Source of the DNA: an uncultured Clostridia bacterium
Lineage (GTDB): Bacteria > Bacillota > Clostridia > Oscillospirales > Ruminococcaceae
Direction of reading: 5' to 3'
Length of the DNA: 64,000 nucleotides
Assembly: GCA_947627985.1 (NCBI GenBank)
Contig: CANQYD010000004.1
Location: forward strand, 1 to 64,000
The position numbers and the translations under genes are program-made. Below, piece after piece: positions 1 to 58,757 of this stretch. The number at the start of each line of letters is the position of its first letter. Position 1 is the stretch's first letter. The notes under the pieces are model-generated. The model was not told where the DNA came from and ran no database searches. It was given only the letters and a program-made list of their open reading frames with translations.

Positions 1-65
1 TGGAAGATAAGAATCTGACCTCTGACTTCTAACCTCTGTCCTCTATGCGACCAACGGGAGCACGG

Positions 66-143
66 GGGCGAAGCCCCGTCGCGCTTGCGCGACGCGCCGA
101 CGCTGCGCGTCGGCGGTGCGACTTCGTCGCACGGGCTTCGCCC
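66..143. repeat. Cloverleaf-like three-arm hairpin element, copy 1
   Basis: GGGCGAAGCCC / GGGCTTCGCCC outer stem; arms GTCGCGC-TT-GCGCGAC, GCCGACG..CGTCGGC, GTGCGAC-TTC-GTCGCAC. Confidence 0.75.
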
Positions 144-1994: not shown

Positions 1995-2432
1995 GGGCGA
2001 AGCCCGTGCGACGAAGTCGCACCGCCGACGCTTCGCGTCGGCGCGCTGCCTTCGGCAGCGGGGCTTCGCCCAGTGCTCCCGCTGCCCCCACCAAAGCCCG
2101 GTAGTGGCACCAACCCCCGCCAGCCTTTTATCAAGCCCCGATAGAAACGCCGACCCCGTGCCGAGCCTTCCATCTTATCCCAATCTATGATAGAAACAGC
2201 TTACTCCCTGCTAACTTTGTCCCACCCCCACCCCCAGACCCCCTCCCCCTTTTAGGGGGAGGGGGCTTCGCTCTACTTATAGCTTTGCACAAGGTATACC
2301 GGGGGAGGGGGTCTGCTTTAAATAGCATGAGTTCATTTTCCGGCAGGAAAATGAACGAATACCTTTTACCAATGGGTGGAGAGGGCGGGTTCTCTATTTT
2401 ATTCAATCGTTTGATGCTTTTAGCCAAGGGCC
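1995..2432. repeat. Composite intergenic hairpin element (three-armed cloverleaf-like part 1995-2071 plus linker plus GGTATTC-hairpin part to ~2432)
   Basis: GGGCGAAGCCC...GGGGCTTCGCCC outer stem with three inner hairpins; linker and hairpin part recur in inverted order at 26376-26745. Confidence 0.8.
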
Positions 2433-15207: not shown

Positions 15208-15284
15208 GGGCGAAGCCCGTGCGACGAAGTCGCACCGCCGACGCTTCGCGTCGGCGCGCTGCCTGCGGCAGCGGGGCTTCGCCC
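15208..15284. repeat. Cloverleaf-like three-arm hairpin element, copy 3
   Basis: Near-identical to 1995-2071. Confidence 0.78.
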
Positions 15285-15506
15285 GGTGCGCCCGCTGGTC
15301 GCACAGATAACAGAGGTCAGAAGTCAGAGGTCAGAATTTTATCTTTTACCCTTCTGCGTCTATTAAGGGTCGGGAGGGGCACATAGCCTTGCACCCGTCC
15401 TTCCGTTCTTCCCAAGGCTAGGCAGAGGCAGAAACCTTTGGCACCGGGCTTTCCTCTTCCACCGAGGCTCGGTAGGAGCAGAGGGCATGGGCGAAGCCCG
15501 CCCATC

Positions 15507-16325
15507 TCACCCAAACCTCTCCATAAATACCTCCTGCCACATCAGCGCGTCGGCGTTGCGGTTGATCTCCTCCGGCGTCCACTCCCACCACTTCGTCCGC
15601 AAAAGCGTGCGGATCATCTCGGGCGGGTAGCGGTACTTGATGACGTTTGCCGGAACCCCTACCACGACCGAATAAGGCGGCACGTCCTTCGTCACGACCG
15701 CGCCCGCGCCTATCACCGCGCCGTCGCCGATCGAGACCACCTTCGAGCAGTTGATGAAGGTGTGCGCGCCTATCCAGACGTCGTTTCCGATCGTGATCTT
15801 CGGCTTTCCGTGGGCATATGGGTGCTTCGGATCGAGTGCGCAGAGCTTCTCGAATTTTCTGCGGTTGTCGTCGGTGAAGAAATCGTCCAGCTCATCGGTC
15901 ACGAACATCATGTTCGAGTGATGATCGCAGTGAATGACAGCCGTCGAGTTTATCGACGTGTATCTCCCGATCGATTCGATATACCCGTTTCGGCAAGCCT
16001 CGATGACGCCGTCGCCGAAGTACGTCTGCCTGCCGACTTTGGTGCCGTATAGTTCCCAGTCGAAGGGAAGCTCTTTGCCGACGTCGCCGTAGCAGATGAA
16101 GTCGTAGACGCTCTTAAAGCCCTTGTCGGCGTTTTCGATGAGAAAGTCTGTGAGATCGTCCTCCGTCACCGCAACGACATAGTGCTTTTTCGGGTCCACG
16201 TTTTCGGTGAATGCCATGCCGAACGGCTCAAGCTGCCTCTTTAGGAGCCTCGACGGTTCACCCCAGACGACGACTTCCCTGCCGTTTAAGCACTGTTCAA
16301 AAATCTGCCTCAGCCTTGTTGTCAT
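15507..16325 (-). CDS. Hexapeptide-repeat (XAT/CatB-like) O-acetyltransferase
   Basis: [54 protein letters not shown]. Confidence 0.85.
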
Positions 16326-26187: not shown

Positions 26188-26375
26188 AGATTGACCTCCG
26201 GTGTATTTTTATATATGATATCACCGGGAGGAAAGATTGTCAAGCGGAGAATGGGGATGATTTGCGGGACTGGGGAGGGGTGGGAAAGGGAGCATTCGGC
26301 TTGCCGACACCATGTTAAAAGGTATCTTAGCCGCGCTTTAAGTCATATTAAAAGGTTTCCCGCCCTGCCCGACCC

Positions 26376-26745
26376 TTGGTAAAAGGTATTCGTTCATTTT
26401 CCCGCCGGAAAATGAACTCATGCTATTTGAAGTAGACCCCTACCCCCGGAAAAGCTTGTGCAAAGGTATGAGCAGAGAGAAGCCCCCTCCCCCTAAAAGG
26501 GGGAGGGGGTTTGGGGGTGGGGGTATGAAAAATCAGCAGAGAGCATTCTGCTTCTATCGTAGATTGGGATAAGATGGAAGGCTCGGCACAGGGCTGGGTA
26601 CCGCTTACAGGGAAAAGCAGGAGCAGAAGCCTCCGGGCGAAGCCCGCCCGCGCGCAAGCGCGCGGGCGCTTCCTCCGCTTTGCGGAGGAAGCCGGCACCT
26701 TCGGTGCCGGGGGCTTCGCCCGGTGTCCTCTCCTGCACCCCCCTA
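26376..26745. repeat. Composite intergenic hairpin element, inverted relative to 1995-2432
   Basis: Contains GGTATTC hairpin (26381-26432), linker (GGGATAAGATGGAAGGCTCGGCAC) and three-arm element (26635-26721). Confidence 0.8.
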
Positions 26746-30807: not shown

Positions 30808-30938
30808 CGATCCGATTTGCGGGCGCACGGATCCTGTGCAACGAGGCGCTGTGAACCATGTCAGGCGGGGAACCGAGCAGCATTAAGCAGTTTGCTTTGT
30901 GTGACGCAGTTCCGTCCGTGCGCCCGCAAATCGGATCG
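30808..30938 (+). ncRNA. ffs: Bacterial small signal recognition particle RNA
   Basis: Complementary ends CGATCCGATTTGCGGGCGCACGG / CCGTGCGCCCGCAAATCGGATCG; apical GTGAACCATGTCAGGCGGGGAACCGAGCAGCATTAAGCAG; upstream of dnaX. Confidence 0.92.
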
Positions 30939-58113: not shown

Positions 58114-58194
58114 GGGCGAAGCCCCCGACGCCGAAGGCGTCGGCTGCCGCAACGAAGTTGCGGCAGAAGCCGTGCCACGGCTTGGGCTTCGCCC
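58114..58194. repeat. Cloverleaf-like three-arm hairpin element, copy 5
   Basis: Outer GGGCGAAGCCC/GGGCTTCGCCC; arms CCGACGCC-GAA-GGCGTCGG, CTGCCGCAAC-GAA-GTTGCGGCAG, AGCCGTG-CCACGGCT. Confidence 0.8.
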
Positions 58195-58348: not shown

Positions 58349-58432
58349 GGGCGAAGCCCCCGACGCCGAAGGCGTCGGCTGCCGCAACGAAGTTGCGGCA
58401 GAAGCCGTGCGAAGCACGGCTTGGGCTTCGCC
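58349..58432. repeat. Cloverleaf-like three-arm hairpin element, copy 6
   Basis: Same as copy 5 with third arm AAGCCGTGC-GAA-GCACGGCTT. Confidence 0.8.
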
Positions 58433-58757
58433 TATGCCTTCTGCTCCTATCAAAGTCGTGTGGTGTGCAGCAGGCTGGGAGCAGGGTTGGGTGCTAAATC
58501 CATACCCGGGCAGTCGTAGATACCCCTCCTCCCAATCATCAAGCCCTCCTTCACTGATTTACCACGCTATACACTCATACCTAAAAGCTCATCAGCAGCC
58601 TAAATATTCCCAAAATTATCTTCCCACGCCTCCGTCCGTAGCCGAAAACTGACGTAAACAACACAAATACAGCGCAGATAACATGGCAGAGCGCAAAAAA
58701 TGTGCTATAATAAAAGTATCAAATAAATGCCGCAGGACGGCGGAAAAGAGGACCGAT

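Follow-up and report, generated by a model that had tools for sequence, protein, structure and literature searches.

Three-armed cloverleaf repeats in an uncultured Clostridia genome, best read as a genus-restricted family of palindromic mobile DNA

The 2.16 Mb genome of an uncultured Clostridia bacterium carries about 200 copies, practically all intergenic, of a palindromic element of about 75–97 bp in which an outer stem of 11 bp encloses three hairpin arms. The elements are best read as mobile DNA, a new family of interspersed palindromes restricted to one genus. The constrained feature is best explained as a single-stranded DNA four-way junction made of the 11-bp outer stem and exactly three arms, mostly capped by cGNAg loops. 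The complete reading, in which non-coding, intergenic, palindromic DNA that is mobile or recently expanding is constrained as such a junction and spreads while folded, is given a slightly better than even chance of being right.

The window, the whole 64,000-nucleotide stretch that was analysed, belongs to contig C4 of a MAG of 72 contigs. The six copies listed by the initial annotation are all present, the last ending at 58433 with one mismatch in its outer stem. They are given here with two associated features.

1..65, no strand assigned: left flank, member of a recurrent flank family, pyrimidine-rich, TCTGACTTCTAACCTCTGTCCTCT...GCGACCAACGGGAGCAC
66..143, no strand assigned: copy 1, outer stem GGGCGAAGCCC/GGGCTTCGCCC, arms CGTCGCGC, CGCCGACGC and GTGCGAC
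1995..2071, no strand assigned: copy 2, family A, arms GTGCGAC, CGCCGACGC and CGCTGCC
15208..15284, no strand assigned: copy 3, family A, distinguished from copy 2 by one loop base (TTC to TGC)
15489..15499, no strand assigned: solo outer-stem half GGGCGAAGCCC without arms
26635..26721, no strand assigned: copy 4, family B, arms GCCCGCGCGC, CTTCCTCCGC and CCGGCACC
58114..58194, no strand assigned: copy 5, family B, arms CCGACGCC, CTGCCGCAAC and AAGCCGTG
58349..58433, no strand assigned: copy 6, third arm AAGCCGTGC GAA GCACGGCTT

Each of the six copies folds into an outer stem and three arms (DNA z of -8 to -11; RNA z of -8.4), and copy 2 forms a perfect four-way junction with zero unpaired bases at the junction. 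The GAA and TTC triloops described earlier were also recovered, with 19 perfect hairpins of this kind in the window against 0–1 in shuffled sequence. Copies 5 and 6 are tandem neighbours with a repeat spacing of 235 bp, and the third arm of copy 5 is four bases shorter in total than that of copy 6. The solo half at 15489..15499 is probably a deletion derivative of a second array copy. The statement that all copies are intergenic holds within the window; elsewhere, 12 of 190 elements overlap a predicted ORF, mostly at or near its start-codon end, and these overlaps are probably start over-calls. The window also contains a bacterial small SRP RNA gene (30825–30924) and, at 2154–2389 and about 26360–26590, a dispersed repeat of ~235 bp comprising ATTTTCCGGCAGGAAAATGAACGAATACCTTTTACC and an adjoining purine-rich stretch, which is 85–90% identical at several other places in the genome.

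Across the genome, the outer half GGGCGAAGCCC has 215 forward and 210 reverse matches, compared with 3 and 0 for a reversed control. The pattern GCGAAGC-N50-80-GCTTCGC occurs 211 times in the genome, and its reversed control 3 times. A detector ignorant of sequence was then applied, requiring a perfectly paired outer stem (7 bp or longer) and 2–6 adjacent perfect arms (6 bp or longer) with loops of 3–5. Over about 1.45 Mb of the genome, biased to copy-bearing stretches among the larger contigs, it identified 166 three-armed cloverleafs and no structure with a fourth or further arm; shuffled sequence (0.41 Mb) gave no cloverleaf. Six two-armed structures in the stretches of this genome have outer stems TTGCGGGG or TTGCAGGG and are unrelated to the cloverleafs. 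Paired outer halves always face each other, and 189 of 191 such pairs span 70–99 bp while the remaining 2 span 40–49 bp; no span of 50–69 or 100–250 bp occurs among the 191. From the spans and the detector counts, therefore, exactly three arms are part of the design. The element ends are GGGC...GCCC. Solo outer halves number 97, and collapsed copies that retain one outer half exist elsewhere.

In several contigs a cloverleaf lies no more than about 100 bp from the contig start (L212:51, L208:1, L180:30, L168:93 and the window at 66), which suggests that the repeats interrupt assembly from short reads and that the true number of copies may exceed the number counted. Another hairpin-rich family is centred on GGGGGAACCCCCGGCGAGGGTTCCCCC (L168:1464, L179:2741, L187:584 and L216:7050). 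Two of its copies adjoin ATGAAAACAGTCC...GGACTGTTTTCAT, and the G018 gap of L064 contains a similar structure.

Among the 31 genomes of the genus, counts of the pattern run from 0 to 211 copies, and the outer-stem pattern was absent from 389 other genomes spread over the class. Nearly all of the data come from short-read MAGs. Outside this genome, true cloverleafs sharing the pattern come from "uncultured Clostridia" MAGs in the "Lapin" (rabbit) series and from the rumen genome RUG14213; carriers include G018, G020 and other rabbit-gut MAGs. Matches in Roseomonas, Magnetococcales, Streptomyces and other named organisms outside the Clostridia yielded no three-armed cloverleafs. Carriage by phages or plasmids was likewise considered and rejected: four viral contigs match the outer pattern without forming cloverleafs, and no plasmid or phage match was obtained. 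The other genomes yielded 96 distinct cloverleafs, practically every one with three arms, and among them about 101 different inner stems; the arms are unrelated between species despite the common three-armed plan, and those in L133 are AT-rich. The outer stems of these elements are mostly 10–14 bp and some differ (e.g. GGCGGAGCCCCG, GGGCCCCTTTT and AGGCGGCGAGCC), although their conservation is partly imposed by the search since retrieval from other species used the outer-stem pattern. One region of this genome, L151:11703-18361 (contig C9), is 90–92.5% identical to G018 (L230, L063) and to Lapin-028 bin48 (L132), and includes a cloverleaf at 15880 that is common to all three; most other shared DNA is about 70–80% identical. 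The region is possibly a recent transfer or strongly conserved.

The pairing of the arms is nearly complete. In 155 distinct elements from this genome, 41 mismatches were counted over 3928 arm pairs (7 G.T, 12 A.C and 22 others), so that the stems are about 99% Watson-Crick. The two-sided changes reported for the arms are real: in an alignment of 61 sequences from one subfamily, 17 of 39 pairs covary over 186 cells, a result matched by none of 500 shuffles, and slid controls reached at most 17 cells. Stems hardly vary among members of one subfamily, and sequence freedom lies between subfamilies and between species. Within a subfamily of 48 copies, each column outside the loops varies in at most one copy, while the middle base of loop 1 varies in 15 of 48 and all three bases of loop 2 vary in 21–24 of 48. 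Arms assort almost freely, with 40 distinct triples among 67 elements compared with 48 under full shuffling. Between tandem neighbours, stems differ at 10 of 1174 positions and loops at 14 of 143, beside flanks that diverge by about 24%, a rough value since some of the flank alignments come close to the identity of 0.62 that serves as the shuffled baseline. The earlier proposal that shape rather than sequence is maintained is supported, even more across species than within the genome.

GNA or its complement TNC makes up 348 of the 367 triloops in this genome, and 434 of 444 arms have C as their 5' closing base. Counted once per distinct combination of stem and loop, GNA or TNC accounts for 102 of 117 combinations here and for 102 of 138 from other species, compared with an expected 12.5%; for hairpins outside the elements the count is 324 of 968. 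Among loop changes, 40 are middle-base variants and 31 leave GNA, against an expectation of one third for the former, with the variants partly non-independent through the common ancestry of the copies. A GNA loop closed by C-G is the form of the extra-stable, nuclease-resistant DNA mini-hairpins on G-C stems described by Hirao and colleagues (PMC4686876). The loop of arm 3 is TTC in all 50 elements compared, and the middle-arm loop is GAA in 25 of 50 and its reverse complement TTC in 15 of 50. Non-GNA loops in the arms from rumen RUG14213 show that GNA does not cap the arms in every genome.

Inversion of a loop together with a compensatory change is a known signature of template switching inside hairpins (PMC8794818). 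A neutral origin could be proposed, in which template switching alone pairs the arms and flips the loops, tandem duplication and recombination amplify the elements passively, and the fold is under no selection. The loop inversions and two-sided changes are what such switching would leave (PMC8794818), and fully compensated changes occur between the tandem duplicates at L212:8689 and 9021. However, a neutral process gives no reason to expect the constant number of three arms in different species, loop changes that so often stay within GNA (40 against 31, one third expected) or the frozen stems of the 48-copy family, and this account is considered unlikely.

One orthologous gap that holds three elements in 1.26 kb here is only 16 and 86 bp long in two relatives, and for 22 orthologous gaps compared, elements were found on one side only in 13. 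At one orthologous site (L064 versus L141) the whole interior is inverted, the arms reading GTTCGC-AGGCGCCC-CGCCGCGC in one and CGCCGCG-AGGCGCCC-GTTCGC in the other. Orthologous sites with and without elements, together with the patchy copy number in the genus, indicate that the elements are mobile or expanding. No target-site duplication or clean empty site was identified at the orthologous sites, where the species are too diverged for the ends of insertions to be read. Empty paralogous sites turned out to be mostly collapsed copies with one outer half and not virgin targets.

The flanks belong to families that occur in many different combinations. Flank class 2 has a fixed orientation relative to family A, lying on the same side in 20 of 20 cases, and the moving unit may therefore be larger than the cloverleaf and include flanks. 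A longer hairpin of about 280 nt with the cloverleaf at its tip was rejected, as left and right flanks pair no better than partners taken from different copies. The flanks (e.g. 1–60 and 15300–15350 of the window) contain runs of degenerate 7–8 bp units, TCTGACTTCTGACCTCTG / CAGAGGTCAGAAGTCAGA.

Strong covariation and good RNA folding could be taken to describe a structured RNA, either a small RNA family or an mRNA stability or terminator element whose cloverleaf is under RNA selection. For such a molecule an excess of G-U pairs would be looked for, yet G-U is not above A-C among the mismatches. Gaps between genes carry elements in proportion to their number, whether tandem (70 of 356 regions), convergent (21 of 110) or divergent (19 of 105), and orientation relative to genes is neutral (10 same, 13 opposite). 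An RNA is also difficult to reconcile with a middle-arm loop that may be GAA or its reverse complement, or with congeners that range from 0 to 211 copies. A search of Rfam at the gathering threshold gave no match to the element in the window, L171, L191 or L214, and at lax thresholds the best sub-threshold matches were at chance level. Of the options in the initial annotation, a structured RNA is thus disfavoured and quite improbable. The DNA-type cGNAg loops, the inversions of loops and of a whole element, presence and absence at orthologous sites and patchy copy number favour the other options, a DNA cruciform or a mobile hairpin element.

Stems that stay unchanged beside flanks diverging by about a quarter could also point to sites with a host function in the nucleoid or in replication, such as sites for a four-way-junction-binding protein, kept in place by selection. 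Such sites would not be expected to vary from 0 to 211 among congeners, to turn over in arms and position between species, or to lack a context preference, and this function is regarded as distinctly unlikely.

The analysis identified no mobilising enzyme. High-copy, intergenic, clustered palindromes resemble REPs (PMC3733652), and the elements could be REPs or REPINs whose transposase is a RAYT (Y1 HUH), or alternatively the MITE of an IS resident in the genome. The high-copy intergenic dispersal of REPs is reproduced by the roughly 200 copies here; the architecture is not, with three arms and an outer stem over 75–97 bp in place of a single hairpin of 20–40 bp or a dimer. GTAG and CGTC tags and RAYT are absent, and in this test the elements did not match a known REP family; the flank families begin with sequences other than GTAG or CGTC. 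The two Y1 proteins of this genome (G000:C5:21314-21670 and G000:C1:728-1084) appear IS200-like by inspection, and no cloverleaf occurs in either locus (2.6–3.4 kb). Each of these genes is adjoined by a near-identical AACCCCCGGC..GCCGGGGGTT hairpin. Nor do Y1 genes track copy number across the genus: G020, 76% complete, has 73–79 copies and no Y1 match, G018 has 165–203 copies and only broken pieces of Y1, and G004 has 10 Y1 matches but 34 copies. An associated transposase, as suggested earlier, was also sought by clustering about 1000 called genes from the 1.45 Mb examined. No high-copy transposase family emerged, only proteins that by eye are IS-like and low-copy. The elements have an 11-bp outer inverted repeat, and an autonomous partner was not seen among these genes. 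A REP or MITE identity is considered highly improbable. The spacers between elements, roughly 100–200 bp, are too short for typical integron cassettes.

Under the preferred reading of mobile DNA constrained as a folded junction, the elements would spread only while folded, as single-stranded DNA of the lagging strand or of a cruciform, so that copies unable to fold would be lost from the spreading pool. Template switching templated by the hairpins probably flips loops and restores the complementarity of the arms, and recombination between copies would shuffle arms and generate tandem arrays of 230–400 bp. It is proposed tentatively, as a doubtful but possible extension, that recognition is of shape and not of sequence: an enzyme or host process would handle the single-stranded three-armed junction, and selection on spread would keep arm number, pairing and stable loops, leaving the arms themselves freely replaceable.

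A constant four-way-junction plan combined with nearly free arms makes selection of a mobile element on the shape of folded single-stranded DNA testable. Covariation is usually taken as proof of a conserved RNA, but these repeats show that a DNA element can also produce it, and R-scape-style scans of these genomes could mistake the element for an RNA. The repeats likely break short-read assemblies of this Clostridia group.

Palindromic repeats interspersed in bacterial genomes typically consist of one hairpin or a pair of hairpins linked to a sequence motif, often with a RAYT. The REP, BIME and REPIN elements, single hairpins or dimers of 20–40 bp with GTAG or CGTC tags, are likewise high-copy, intergenic, clustered and patchy in copy number (PMC3733652, PMC3116915). 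In contrast, the elements described here form a four-way junction with no tag, no RAYT and no arm sequence common between species. The attC site of integrons offers a parallel as folded single-stranded DNA recognised largely by shape, with sequence-divergent copies in arrays, but differs in being one long imperfect hairpin that flanks gene cassettes and is used by the integron integrase. The T-shaped terminal repeats of parvoviruses also have an outer stem with inner arms and occur in flip and flop orientations; they have two inner arms and lie at the ends of viral genomes, whereas three arms at dispersed chromosomal sites are found here. Hairpins maintained by template switching share the loop inversions and instantaneous compensatory stem changes, and are known from RNA genes or as a mutation process (PMC8794818), while in the present case its target would be a high-copy DNA repeat whose arm number is fixed. 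In behaviour, the elements come closest to the GC clusters of yeast mitochondria, which are also GC-rich, palindromic, mobile and constrained by fold, with changes concentrated in loops (PMC4478555). In both, units merge and shuffle with no known dedicated enzyme. The palindromic cluster GC42 is 42 nt long, with a merged form of 86 nt and an AG target (PMC4478555); the present elements differ in being bacterial, about 80 bp long and built on exactly three covarying arms.
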